NCBI GenBank assembly: GCA_019748065.1
Contig: JAIEQB010000039.1
Coordinates: 1 to 42,040, forward strand
Reading direction: 5' to 3'
DNA: 42,040 nt
From: Alphaproteobacteria bacterium
Lineage (GTDB): Bacteria > Pseudomonadota > Alphaproteobacteria > UBA9655
Below, piece after piece: positions 35,632 through 40,814 of the stretch; within the stretch, counting starts at the first letter, position 1; every line of letters starts with the position of its first letter. Under the pieces are notes generated by a model. The model had not been told where the DNA came from. It ran no database searches and saw only the letters and a program-made list of their open reading frames with translations. Both the position numbers and the translations under genes were made by a program.

Positions 35632-35961
35632 ATGCTTTATCTTCGATTGTTTTTCTATGTAATGGTGTTGGCGAATTTTCCTTCTTTTGTTTTCGCCAAT
35701 TTCGAGACAATATCTTCTGTCGTGGCTGTAAAAGATAAGGTTAATTCTCTTCAAATTCAGGGAGCAAGACCTGAAGATATTGTTGTGGTGTGGGATTGCC
35801 ATGGAGTCATTACGCCTCAAGGGACTCCCAGAAAAGGTGTTGAATCGACTTTGAGTCCAAATGTTTTAACTGTTCTTGGCGACTTAAATGCCGAGGGCAT
35901 TCCTCAGGTTATTTCGACAGCATGGCATGATCCTTATGAAGTACAAAAAGATCTTCTGTGA
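35632..35961 (+). CDS. HAD-like exported protein, N-terminal part (stops at TGA)
   Basis: 109 residues from ATG 35632 (GAGGTGA upstream). Signal peptide to about residue 22 (FPSFVFA), then HAD motif I VVVWDCHGVIT, where nucleophile Asp55 is present but the usual second Asp is His57, and a motif II-like QVISTAWHD. The frame ends in TGA at 35959 and continues without shift to 36369, so a single nonsense change splits one gene of about 245 codons. Confidence 0.55.
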   Translation: MLYLRLFFYVMVLANFPSFVFANFETISSVVAVKDKVNSLQIQGARPEDIVVVWDCHGVITPQGTPRKGVESTLSPNVLTVLGDLNAEGIPQVISTAWHDPYEVQKDLL

Positions 35962-36369
35962 CTTCAAGTGACTCCTTATTTTGATGCTGAAAACATTGAG
36001 GAGGGAAATTTAGAAATTGTCCCTCTTGGGAAAAATAAATCCTTGTTGGAGGGACATAAAATTGGAAGAATAACGGCTTTAAGGGAACGTGAAGATTTTC
36101 CTAGTCCTTATTTTCGTAAAAAAGCTTTTGGAGCGGAATGGTGTTTCCCAGAGAATAATTTTAAGCATGTTATTTTTGTTGATGATGATAAGCGTAATTT
36201 AGAAATATTTGAAAAAGATTTTAAAGAAACTATTCATTACAATAGTGAGGAAGATATGGAAAAATTGACCCTCTATCACTTTTCTTCCTCGATGGTAAAG
36301 CCTAATCCAAGATATGCCAAATTTCCTCCTAATTCTCTTTCAGATGATGAGAGTGTTGATGAGTTTTAG
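35962..36369 (+). pseudogene. HAD-like exported protein, C-terminal part after in-frame TGA
   Basis: In-frame continuation of the preceding gene. A GTG at 35968 could restart translation but has no ribosome-binding site and would lack signal peptide and nucleophile. The part carries HAD motif IV (HVIFVDDDKRNLEIFE) and an acidic end (SDDESVDEF). Both halves keep good coding character, so the TGA is recent, a sequencing error, or occasionally read through. Related small exported HAD proteins occur in intracellular bacteria; that comparison is from memory. Confidence 0.55.
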
Positions 36370-37192: not shown

Positions 37193-38491
37193 TTACCACG
37201 TTGGATAGGATCCTTCGCCGGGAATGTTAACTTCCCGCTTATGAAAACCTACAATATCTACGCTGCGAAGCTTCACTTTTGCGTTAGAACTTGCTTGATA
37301 TGTGTACATAACTTCCCGTCCGTTGGGGGACCAGGTGGGTCCTTCAAGAAGGTAGCCGGTGTCCAGCATGCGCTCTCCCGATCCATCCGGGCCCATCACT
37401 CCAATATAAAATGTACCCCCATTTTGACGTGTAAAGGCAATTAAGTCTCCGCGAGGAGACCAAACCGGATTGTCATAACGACCTGGGCTAAAACTAATGC
37501 GTGTTTCGTTACCCCCTGAAGCATCTCGTACATAAATTTGAGGTTTTCCACCCCGGTCAGAAATATAAACAATTTTAGACCCATCGGGGGAGTAGCAAGG
37601 GGAAACGTCGATGGTGGACGTGGCGGTGGTGAGCCTATCAAACTTTTTGGTTGCCAAGTCCATTTTATAAAGAGAAGCAGCTCCCTTGTTAGCGCTGCTT
37701 AGGATAATGTGATCCCCTTTGGGAGAAAACCTTGGGGACATTCTTTGTCCGTCAACGGATCCTAAAGCATCAGATTGGCCCGTAGCCAGGTTATGGATAT
37801 GAAGAGTTGGGGTTTTATCATTAGCGCCAAAATCCACATAGGCAATTTTTGTTCGACAAGGAGACATGCGAGGAGTTAATACTCGCCGGTTACCTGTTGA
37901 AATAAATTGATGATTCTCTCCGTCTTGGTCCATGATGGCTAAGGAGTATTTACGGCTCATTTCAGGACCGCTTTCCGCGACATAAACAATGCGGGTGTCA
38001 AAATAACCCTTGTCACCTGTGATACGCTCATAAATCTCATCGGCAATTTTATGGGCAACTCTGCGCCAATTAGAAGGCTCGGTTTCAAGGGAGAGACCCG
38101 CAAGCTGAGATTCCGTAAAGACGTCAAAAAGGCGAAAGTCGACTTGGAAGTTCTGGCCGTTACGCTTGACAAGGCCACCGACAAGGGCTTCGGCGTGGAG
38201 AATTTTCCAGTCAGGAAAACGAGGATGGGACATGACCTCACGTGCATTTTGAATATAAGCATTTGGATTTACAACTTTAAAAAGGCCGCAACTTTCCAAG
38301 TCATTTGAAATAACCTTGGAGATTTGACTCGCGACTTGCGTTAAAGCAGCATCTCCACCTCCATCAAAGGGAGTGATGGCAATTTCAACAGGCTTAAAGG
38401 TGCCCTCAGTAATATCAATGTGAAGATCTGCCCAGCTAGGACTGATGAGACTCAAAAGGATGATTAGGGAGAACAGGAATTTTTTTAGCAT
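37193..38491 (-). CDS. tolB: Tol-Pal system protein TolB
   Basis: Periplasmic partner of Pal. 432 residues from ATG 38491 (AAAGGA upstream); a TTG three codons earlier is less likely. Signal peptide MLKKFLFSLIILLSLISPSWA, N-terminal domain with ITPFDGGG, then a six-bladed propeller of PD40 repeats (MSPCRTKIAYVDFG, PRFSPKGDHIILSS, CYSPDGSKIVYISD, PVWSPRGDLIAFTR, PTWSPNGREVMYTY). It is 187 bases upstream of pal. tolQRA are not next to it; an SAH-hydrolase-like gene lies upstream instead. Confidence 0.96.
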   Translation of the reverse strand: MLKKFLFSLIILLSLISPSWADLHIDITEGTFKPVEIAITPFDGGGDAALTQVASQISKVISNDLESCGLFKVVNPNAYIQNAREVMSHPRFPDWKILHAEALVGGLVKRNGQNFQVDFRLFDVFTESQLAGLSLETEPSNWRRVAHKIADEIYERITGDKGYFDTRIVYVAESGPEMSRKYSLAIMDQDGENHQFISTGNRRVLTPRMSPCRTKIAYVDFGANDKTPTLHIHNLATGQSDALGSVDGQRMSPRFSPKGDHIILSSANKGAASLYKMDLATKKFDRLTTATSTIDVSPCYSPDGSKIVYISDRGGKPQIYVRDASGGNETRISFSPGRYDNPVWSPRGDLIAFTRQNGGTFYIGVMGPDGSGERMLDTGYLLEGPTWSPNGREVMYTYQASSNAKVKLRSVDIVGFHKREVNIPGEGSYPTW

Positions 38492-38579
38492 TAATAACAA
38501 TCCTTTAAATGGGGTTCATGAAGTTAAAAAAATAATATAGAGTTCTTAGTGAAAAAACAAGAATATCGATCTTTCAATA

Positions 38580-39722
38580 TCATTGGTGTGAAGTTTTTTC
38601 TTTAAGAAAGATCTCCAAAGCCTTTTGTTCAAGGTCTTGCGGTACTTTACAAAGGCCAGAGTAGTTCCCTTTTTTAGAGATCAGTTCTTGAAAACAAAGA
38701 GTAGAAAGAGCAAAGTTTAGATCAATTTGTTCGACTGGCCAACCATTTCCTGATGAAATATTGACAAGATTTCCTTTGGATAAAATGGTTATCTTTTTCC
38801 CACTCTTTAATGTAAATGTATCTACGCAATTATTTGAATTCTGGTGGTAAATTGAATTATCCTCAATAAACTTAAAGTCTATTTCAGAAGAAAAACACCC
38901 AACGTTTGCGATTATGGCTTCATCTTTAACTTTACTAAGCTCATCTTTACCAAAGGCATTTATATCACCTGAACAAGTAATAACTATATGAGCCTTATCT
39001 AAGAGCATTTTTTCAGGATCGGGTTTATAACCATTAAAGTAAGCAGCTACTAAATTTTGTACACTCTTATCCCAAACAATAATATTTGAACCATTTTGTG
39101 AGAAAAATTTAGCAACACCCTTACCTACTTCCCCATAGCCTATAATCAGAACATTCTTTCCTGCAGGATTTATATTTACCAAATTAAAAATGGTTATAAG
39201 GGTGGAAAATCCAGTTCCGGACTCATTGCAAAGCTTGTGCTTACAGTAACTGTCTCCTACATCAAATATCGGAAAGCAAGCGGAATCATCCTCATACTTT
39301 TTAAGTGTATTTGACCCTGTTGTTGTAAATTCAATAGCTCCAATAAGTTGAGGAAAATCCTTTCTATTATCAACGCAATAATCGATTAAGACAGCGCCAT
39401 CATCAAAAATGAGATGAGGAGAAAAACTTTTAATCATTTCCAAGTCATTAGGCAGTAAATTGTCGTTTACTCTAGGTATATATTTAATTTTATTTTCTTT
39501 TAAGTAATTTACAGCTTTTGAAGAGACTGAAGAAGGGTGACTTGGATAAACAAGCGTATTAAACCCCCTTTCGTGGAACATGAGAACCCATTCAGCTAAC
39601 TTCATTTCAGCGTGTGAAGAAAAAATTATATTGATTGGTGCATCTGCTAACTTTGATAAATTTTCCATGATTTGACTAGTTGTTTTAAGCTTGGGAATTT
39701 TTACAATATGATTATTTTTCAT
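38580..39722 (-). CDS. divergent S-adenosylhomocysteine hydrolase-like protein
   Basis: 380 residues from ATG 39722 (GGAG seven bases upstream); the frame reaches 39755. The SAHH plan is recognisable: FDDGAVLIDYC, IGAIEFTTTG (compare GVTEETTTG), FPIFDVGDSYCKHKLCN keeping one Lys of DSVTKSKFDN, the NAD-binding VLIIGYGEVGKGVAKFF, NVGCFSSEIDF, and VNISSGNGWPVEQID. It is shorter than true AhcY (about 430-470), many catalytic blocks differ, and the DNA is more AT-rich than neighbours. Probably an NAD-dependent relative acting on another thioether or nucleoside. No methionine-cycle gene is near. Confidence 0.7.
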   Translation of the reverse strand: MKNNHIVKIPKLKTTSQIMENLSKLADAPINIIFSSHAEMKLAEWVLMFHERGFNTLVYPSHPSSVSSKAVNYLKENKIKYIPRVNDNLLPNDLEMIKSFSPHLIFDDGAVLIDYCVDNRKDFPQLIGAIEFTTTGSNTLKKYEDDSACFPIFDVGDSYCKHKLCNESGTGFSTLITIFNLVNINPAGKNVLIIGYGEVGKGVAKFFSQNGSNIIVWDKSVQNLVAAYFNGYKPDPEKMLLDKAHIVITCSGDINAFGKDELSKVKDEAIIANVGCFSSEIDFKFIEDNSIYHQNSNNCVDTFTLKSGKKITILSKGNLVNISSGNGWPVEQIDLNFALSTLCFQELISKKGNYSGLCKVPQDLEQKALEIFLKEKTSHQ

Positions 39723-39858
39723 TATTTGCTCCATGTGATTTTTGATCTGTTTCATAACGCAGCTTCATTAAAAATTAAACATCTCTGATTTAGAGGAGGT
39801 TTAAAATTCTGACATATATGTTCTGAAAATAAGTTTTAAGGTTTGTGGTGAAAGACTT

Positions 39859-40199: not shown

Positions 40200-40814
40200 A
40201 TGCGTAAGGAGATAAAAGTAGGAGCTATACTTCCTGATTTTGAGTTACCCGATCACACGAATGTAAAACGAAAATTGTCATTTCTTCAAGGAAATGACCC
40301 AATGATTCTTATGCTTGGCAGGGGAATTTATTGTCCAAAAGATCGGCAACAATTACATCAATTGGTAAAATTTTCTTCTCAATGTGATGTAGGTTTTACC
40401 CGCATTGTTACCATTAATTGTGATAATTACATTTTAATTAATGATCTTCGCCTGGGTGTAGGGGCCCATTGGCCTTTTTTATATGATGAAGAAAAAATTA
40501 TTCTCAAGGACCTTGAGATTGAAGAGTATACTGATGTTCTACATAGGCCAATGATTCCTCACACCTTGGTTTTAGAGCCGGGTTTAAAAATATATAAGAT
40601 TTATAATGGGTACTGGTATTGGGGGCGTCCCTCAACTGCTGAGCTTCATCAGGATTTGCGGGAAATTTCCATGAAATATCGTCCTGACTTTAAAATTGAC
40701 ACTCCTGAAATGCGAAAGAAATGGGAAAGTGAACAAAGGGATGATTTTTATCCTTATGGTAAAAGTTGGGAAGAAGTTTTTATTCGCATGTCAGGTGACG
40801 TTAACCAATTTTAG
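40200..40814 (+). CDS. peroxiredoxin-like (AhpC/TSA superfamily) protein
   Basis: 204-residue thioredoxin-fold protein. GAILPDFELPDHTN is the typical start of the AhpC/TSA fold; LGRGIYCPKDRQQL places the probable peroxidatic Cys45 after RGxx as in the RGxWCPYC group of peroxiredoxin-like proteins, but without the second Cys (CPKD). PMIPHTLVLEPGLKIYKIYNGYW is the following strand-cis-Pro region. The C-terminal 50 residues (from SMKYRPDFKID) are an extra charged tail. GGAGGGGAT precedes the ATG. Likely thiol peroxidase or redox sensor; reductant unknown. Confidence 0.75.
   Translation: MRKEIKVGAILPDFELPDHTNVKRKLSFLQGNDPMILMLGRGIYCPKDRQQLHQLVKFSSQCDVGFTRIVTINCDNYILINDLRLGVGAHWPFLYDEEKIILKDLEIEEYTDVLHRPMIPHTLVLEPGLKIYKIYNGYWYWGRPSTAELHQDLREISMKYRPDFKIDTPEMRKKWESEQRDDFYPYGKSWEEVFIRMSGDVNQF

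Follow-up and report, generated by a model that had tools for sequence, protein, structure and literature searches.

SAHL, encoded in a stretch of 42,040 nucleotides from an alphaproteobacterial genome (contig JAIEQB010000039.1; the whole stretch analysed is called here the window), represents by its sequence a variant subfamily inside the known SAH hydrolase (SAHH) superfamily, a new specificity being the best reading of its residue pattern. The protein looks like an active NAD-dependent member of that superfamily with a substrate other than SAH, a proposal drawn from the sequence and a structural model and about evenly balanced between being right and being wrong; the odds given to this and to three competing explanations are a matter of judgement. 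The SAHHs have been described as very uniform, the residues for ligand binding and catalysis being conserved between species (PMC4647836, PMC13406329). SAHL, which has lost both 2'-OH ligands and the gate histidine while keeping the chemistry and staying under purifying selection, offers a natural test of the roles of these residues, and automatic annotation would probably label it adenosylhomocysteinase. No paper on the subfamily was found in the open-licence literature. The positions of the relevant features are collected in Table 1.

Table 1 SAHL, its neighbours and its sequence features (positions in the window; residue equivalences refer to canonical SAHH numbering)
Feature	Position	Strand	Remark
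tolB, downstream neighbour of SAHL	37193..38500	-	name presumed, as in the earlier note
SAHL, SAHH-superfamily protein, 391 aa as longest frame (stop included)	38580..39755	-	
AhpC/TSA-like protein, 204 aa, divergent neighbour of SAHL	40200..40814	+	
Putative RBS GGAG, 6-nt spacer and start codon M12	39720..39732	-	ATG 39722-39720
D118-D119	39399..39404	-	kept; D119 = Asp131, C4' acid/base
E142-F143-TTT-G147	39315..39332	-	Glu156 replaced by Phe143 (2'-OH ligand lost); three Thr kept
K172, N177	39225..39242	-	Lys186 and Asn191 kept; Asp190 replaced by Cys176 (2'-OH ligand lost)
G206-Y-G-E-V-G211	39123..39140	-	NAD-binding glycine loop; D229 = acidic end of strand 2
N284-V-G-C287-F288	38892..38906	-	molecular gate; His301 replaced by Cys
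G338-W339-P340	38736..38744	-	His353 replaced by Trp
HxExK fingerprint, H48-x-E50-x-K52	39600..39614	-	H48 = His55; Glu/Lys bind base (PMC10978960)

Concerning the family assignment, SAHL is matched by PF00670 (AdoHcyase_NAD) at 2.1e-28 and 99.9 bits, above the cut-off of 27 bits, and PF05221 (AdoHcyase) is not found in it up to an E value of 1. The curated equivalog cut-offs are missed both for NF004005 (NCBIfam; 1e-64 over residues 41-385, 218.9 bits, cut-off 275) and for TIGR00936 (180.7 bits, cut-off 497.6). Among solved structures, 7r39 (Sulfolobus, 1.4e-43) and 5tov (Thermotoga, 3.5e-43) match best by sequence. The earlier note's description of an SAHH-like but divergent protein is supported by these values, the identity to archaeal SAHHs being 26-28%. 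An ordinary AhcY was rejected as a candidate, SAHL lying under two curated cut-offs and having changed pocket residues. The claim that the protein is 60-90 residues shorter than AhcY stands against the AhcY of a sister genus (451 aa, a difference of 60 aa) and fails against the short-type enzymes (404-425 aa), where the difference is about 15-35 residues.

The structure prediction proposed along with that description gave a full SAHH fold. The AlphaFold2 model, built of the protein alone from 31 aligned sequences that are mostly canonical AhcY from viral contigs, has a mean pLDDT of 88.8 and a pTM of 0.83, with residues 1-3 and 7-19 under 50, and in it the substrate and NAD domains are complete over the full length. 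Foldseek and VIA-align both put SAHHs first, all 50 of the 50 rows shown being SAHHs. The closest is the Pyrococcus furiosus SAHH with inosine (7r37; Z 46.3, rmsd 2.8, 374 residues, 26% identity), with 7r39 adjacent (Z 46.2, 28% identity); the archaeal, Synechocystis and Thermotoga SAHHs range over Z 44.5-46.3, 5tov excepted (41.6), and the human SAHH 1li4 scores lower (42.9). The model thus shows that the sequence fits the SAHH fold, pocket details not being proven thereby.

The active site may be read against mouse SAHH, in which Glu156 and Asp190 hold the 2'-OH, Thr157 and Lys186 the 3'-OH, and His55, Asp131 and His301 the 5'-OH (PMC4647836). For the reaction itself, the lysine is the base in 3' oxidation with two asparagines assisting, the C4' proton goes to the aspartate, and the leaving sulfur is protonated by the histidine (PMC13406329). 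SAHL keeps His55 (H48), Asp131 (D119), Thr157 (T144), Lys186 (K172) and Asn191 (N177), together with the NAD-site residues, that is GxGxxG, Thr145/Thr146, Asn332 and the acidic residue ending strand 2; the retention of the NAD core GYGEVGKG, pointed out previously, is borne out against both the solved SAHHs and 14 canonical rows. Replaced are Glu156 (F143), Asp190 (C176), Asn181 (G167), His301 (C287), His353 (W339) and Met358 (I344). The earlier note was accordingly right that the ETTTG block (EETTTG to EFTTTG), the NxGHFDxE block (now NVGCFSSE) and the C-terminal blocks (GHP to GWP, with the C-terminal end lost) have changed; of the lysine block said to be kept, K172 and N177 in DSYCKHKLCN are indeed there, and Asp190 has become Cys176. 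A broken active site, which it had also considered, did not appear, the chemical core being intact and the sugar-binding residues changed.

Among 79 columns invariant in the 14 canonical rows, SAHL keeps 41, including H48, D119, K172, N177 and the NAD residues, and loses 38, including Glu156, Asp190, His301, His353 and Asn181. F143 and C176 are found in all three genomes with SAHL. A survey of homologues comprised 126 distinct frames, five of them whole or fragmentary SAHL sequences in three genomes and 121 others, with the very distant L058 left outside. Lys186, Asn191, Glu155 and Thr157 are identical across all 126 frames. In the 121 non-SAHL frames the column of Glu156 holds Glu (118), Ala (2) or Gln (1) and that of Asp190 holds Asp (114), Glu (5) or His (2), counts to be read with the bias of the survey, since its viral loci were chosen by patterns containing E[EQ]TT or FDN. 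The combination of SAHL—both 2'-OH ligands lost with His55, Asp131 and Lys186 kept—occurs in no non-SAHL frame among the 126; in the Klebsiella and Yersinia rows both 2'-OH ligands are lost, and Asp131 is lost too.

With regard to the known systems, SAHL most resembles the short archaeal and Thermotoga AhcY (EC 3.3.1.1; 7r37, 7r39, 3x2e) in fold (Z 44.5-46.3), in the NAD site, in the Lys/Asp/His/Asn core and in lacking the Lys/Tyr tail, and differs from it in the low identity (26-28%) and in the substitutions of Glu156, Asp190, Asn181, His301 and His353 listed above. The tail is absent from short SAHHs in general (PMC13406329); SAHL, in addition, has about 18 C-terminal residues fewer than the short-type L014, and this shorter C-terminus would imply an oligomer interface other than that of SAHHs and probably weaker NAD retention. 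The HxExK fingerprint retained in SAHL is shared with the SAHHs of P. furiosus and Methanococcus maripaludis, and it goes with a preference for hypoxanthine substrates in several euryarchaeal SAHHs (PMC10978960). Those preferring S-inosyl-L-homocysteine (7r3a, Z 45.5) carry it as well; SAHL differs from them in its replaced sugar and gate residues and in a genome without a PF01979 match.

If SAHL is an active enzyme with another substrate, bound NAD would oxidise a sugar hydroxyl with Lys172 as the base, Asp119 would take the neighbouring proton, His48 would aid departure of the leaving group or addition of water at the 5' substituent, and NADH would reduce the ketone back. Because both 2'-OH carboxylates are lost, one of them to a bulky Phe, the substrate would probably not be SAH, its sugar not being gripped via the 2'-OH, as in a 2'-deoxy or 2'-unrecognised nucleoside-like compound; should SAHL bind a purine, HxExK would favour a hypoxanthine-like base. 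The fully specified version, in which SAHL is encoded by one moving gene, in a lineage without the methionine cycle, and acts on a nucleoside thioether or related compound that is 2'-deoxy or 2'-unrecognised and possibly hypoxanthine-like, is unlikely to be correct in every part.

A precedent for a changed substrate is AgmF, an enzyme annotated as SAH hydrolase that does not use SAH and acts as the angustmycin A dehydratase, dehydrating angustmycin C, with oxidation by NAD and elimination at the sugar as the proposed route; its essential residues are His56, Asp129, Lys184, Asp188 and His299, the D188A and H299A changes abolishing activity (PMC8599513). Like SAHL, it is an SAHH relative with, as would hold for SAHL too, a substrate other than SAH; unlike SAHL, it is encoded in a biosynthetic cluster. 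Compared by role, from the published description, H48, D119 and K172 of SAHL are kept, and Asp188 and His299 correspond to C176 and C287. Since AgmF needs the two residues that are Cys in SAHL, the latter is probably no AgmF; if it does have another substrate, it would be a further neofunctionalised SAHH alongside AgmF.

The same two positions may be read the other way, namely that the chemistry has been lost instead of redirected, since AgmF dies on exactly these alanine changes, and SAHL may, by this analogy, be catalytically weak or a sensor. Further points against an active enzyme are that Asn181, the support of the base lysine, is Gly167 and that the 38 canonical invariant columns lost go beyond the sugar ligands. 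The animal protein AHCYL1/IRBIT has the SAHH fold and acts as a sensor or partner. A non-catalytic binder of a nucleotide or metabolite, with the fold still binding NAD or a nucleoside, would suit the loss of both 2'-OH ligands, Asn181, the gate histidine and the C-terminal end, the replacement of residues essential in AgmF and the patchy presence in three of 17 genomes. Nevertheless, Lys172, Asp119, His48 and Asn177 are kept in all three copies, and such a binder has no clear need for Asp119, His48 and Lys172 together. This explanation is regarded as rather unlikely, though to be taken seriously. Measured by the loss of catalytic residues expected of the AHCYL1/IRBIT type, SAHL gives a mixed picture, with the chemical core kept and binding residues lost.

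SAHL is to be seen against the metabolism of its host. The genome of the window (1.93 Mb, 97.3% complete) has metK, and the absence of methionine-cycle context noticed around the gene holds genome-wide: no matches were obtained in this genome for PF05221 (AhcY; the one genome searched, the control being found in 9/14 genomes), PF02574 (MetH type; control in 9/14) or PF01717 (MetE type; control in 10/14), nor for PF01979, the family of the deaminase for S-inosylhomocysteine (control in 14/14). The check for a canonical ahcY or mtn elsewhere thus gave no PF05221 match and a single PF01048 protein, a frame of 503 aa, which by its length we take to be AMP nucleosidase; a short SAH nucleosidase was not found in this genome by the PF01048 search. 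Of the 17 genomes in the order, 16 match PF01048 in frames of 442-532 aa, G016 having a second one of 276 aa.

It could therefore be asked whether SAHL is a true SAH or S-inosylhomocysteine hydrolase with a drifted pocket replacing the missing AhcY, as metK without a PF05221 match, the sole PF01048 protein of AMP-nucleosidase length and the HxExK of hypoxanthine-preferring SAHHs (PMC10978960) would allow. As a query, however, SAHL matches 308 of 385 genomes of the class, so it finds AhcY in most alphaproteobacteria, and it has no match in 12 of the 15 genomes of its genus (three of the 12 being 63, 82 and 83% complete). Because these congeners show neither AhcY nor SAHL, SAHL is not, as judged from gene content, simply a replacement AhcY, and it is not generally needed for SAH removal in the genus; SAH disposal there must then run another way, and our guess is export or exchange with a host. 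With both 2'-OH ligands gone that are present in nearly all other homologues examined, no protein family of the MetE or MetH type that would consume homocysteine and no PF01979 deaminase to supply S-inosylhomocysteine, a drifted hydrolase seems distinctly improbable.

Concerning the distribution, SAHL was found in three of the 17 genomes of the order—those of the window, G010 (88%) and G014 (94%)—all of one genus and all with open frames; G001, from another genus, has a normal AhcY of 451 aa in its place. The order of genes is AhpC-like-SAHL-tolB in the window, rpoH-SAHL-AhpC-like-tolB in G010, where the insert is barely more than the SAHL gene, and rpoH-AhpC-like-SAHL-tolB in G014, an order inferred over a break between contigs that falls within SAHL; the fourth congener, G009, has the empty site rpoH-AhpC-like-tolB. 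SAHL thus occupies two positions, one gene apart, among congeners. The neighbour called rpoH belongs by profile search to the sigma-70 family, and we presume it to be rpoH. Inspected by eye, the junction sequences of SAHL show neither a transposase gene nor a clear terminal repeat. As a side observation, the G014 gene is split between two contig ends (L045:1-11 and L006:1504-1576) not far from a 4-residue gap that the window copy shows against G010, and mixed alleles in the population may be the cause.

In the wider searches, a scan of genome contigs gave 216 candidate stretches with two true relatives (L044, L045). Viral contigs contained no member with either P0001 or the three-copy alignment as the query, and the plasmid and phage scan matched 99 plasmid and three phage records, all at less than 60% identity. 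No further member was recognised by score in the 385 genomes of the class, among the matches listed, or in 398 genomes of the phylum and 369 gammaproteobacterial genomes, all nine gammaproteobacterial matches carrying canonical SAHH residues. Phyla beyond Pseudomonadota were covered by the genome-contig (near-exact short peptides), plasmid, phage and viral scans only.

In the main evolutionary tree—prepared without L018, L020 and L025 (in wrong frames in the first tree), without the very distant L058 and also without L064—the three SAHL copies form a group of their own, set apart by a long branch (6.3 changes per column). Their nearest neighbour has a support of 34/63, and a long-branch warning applies. 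In the first tree SAHL had fallen within the short-type rows (88/90), but the set used contained the wrong-frame rows and L058. When constrained to group with proteobacterial-type AhcY, SAHL gives a p-AU of 0.0546, not rejected at 0.05. The phylogenetic comparison with AhcY suggested beforehand therefore shows no close clustering and a long separate branch, whereas a grouping with AhcY is not firmly rejected.

SAHL is under purifying selection. Its dN/dS (Nei-Gojobori) over the three pairs is 0.142, 0.116 and 0.159, close to that of pal (0.133-0.211), with tolB (0.058-0.101), the AhpC-like gene (0.017-0.043) and atpD (0.010-0.012) all below it. At the 29 positions chosen for the pocket and the NAD site the three copies do not differ, 46 of 352 columns varying overall (P = 0.014, a soft value because the positions were picked after the alignment had been seen). 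These values bear on the idea that the gene is decaying, or newly acquired, and at present without function: its low GC (33.1%), patchy presence, differing position between congeners and promoter and terminator signals not above shuffled DNA would agree with it, but dN/dS of 0.116-0.159 in three pairs, frames open in three genomes and a pocket invariant in three copies make it very improbable.

As for the gene itself, translation probably starts at M12 and not at M1, yielding a product of about 380 aa, because DNA likeness to both relatives ends just upstream of M8 and because GGAG lies 6 nt ahead of the M12 ATG in all three copies. The gene had been said to stand next to tolB in AT-rich DNA, and so it does: what we take to be tolB adjoins it, and its GC is 33.1% (26.9% at third positions) against 42.4% for the window, the AhpC-like neighbour having 36.8%. 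Promoter-like and terminator-like sites around SAHL show no excess over shuffled DNA, and no pathway genes hinting at a substrate lie beside it. The AhpC/TSA-like neighbour shows weak similarity to SelL-related redox proteins in a profile search; its gene (window:40200-40814; L142:1480-2091) is present in 11 of the order's 17 genomes, lies next to tolB and in close relatives also adjoins rpoH. A functional tie between SAHL and this neighbour was rejected as unsupported, since eight of the 11 genomes carrying the AhpC-like gene have no SAHL. Elsewhere in the window, two adjoining short frames at 35632-36369, the first of 109 aa and the second of 133 aa, may be one gene split by a stop or frameshift; the second matches DUF2608 below the threshold.

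Several other SAHH relatives emerged from the survey. Those of the Vibrio/Photobacterium/Rhizobium type (L013:7842-9050, L046:1345-2553, L052:4001-5041, L054 and L059:6001-7023) have Asp131 replaced by Asn and Asp190 by Glu in common and are grouped in the tree (82/84). They are short and carry HxExK, like SAHL, and L046 ranks with the better matches from outside the subfamily (135.8 bits); unlike SAHL, they keep Glu156 and the gate histidine, so that theirs is another change of the pocket. The Vibrio relative is annotated as adenosylhomocysteinase, and so is the distinct relative on a Klebsiella plasmid (L010:7998-9107, NZ_CP129873.1). A protein of the same type as the latter lies on a Yersinia plasmid (L009:8001-9078, NZ_MT039226.1), where no gene is listed and the match is in two pieces, as if frameshifted. 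With Asp130-Asp131 changed to Glu-Met, EETTTG to EATGSG and Asp190 to His, these two are likely not SAH hydrolases either. On a Roseateles plasmid (L011:7845-10357, NZ_CP084754.1), two adjoining SAHH relatives neighbour sugar ABC transporter genes, an amidohydrolase and a nucleoside hydrolase (PF01156), which looks like a locus for nucleoside use. Finally, L058:2731-3885, on a contig classed as viral (IMGVR_UViG_2718218029_000001), encodes a very divergent SAHH-like protein of 385 aa with many active-site residues changed.
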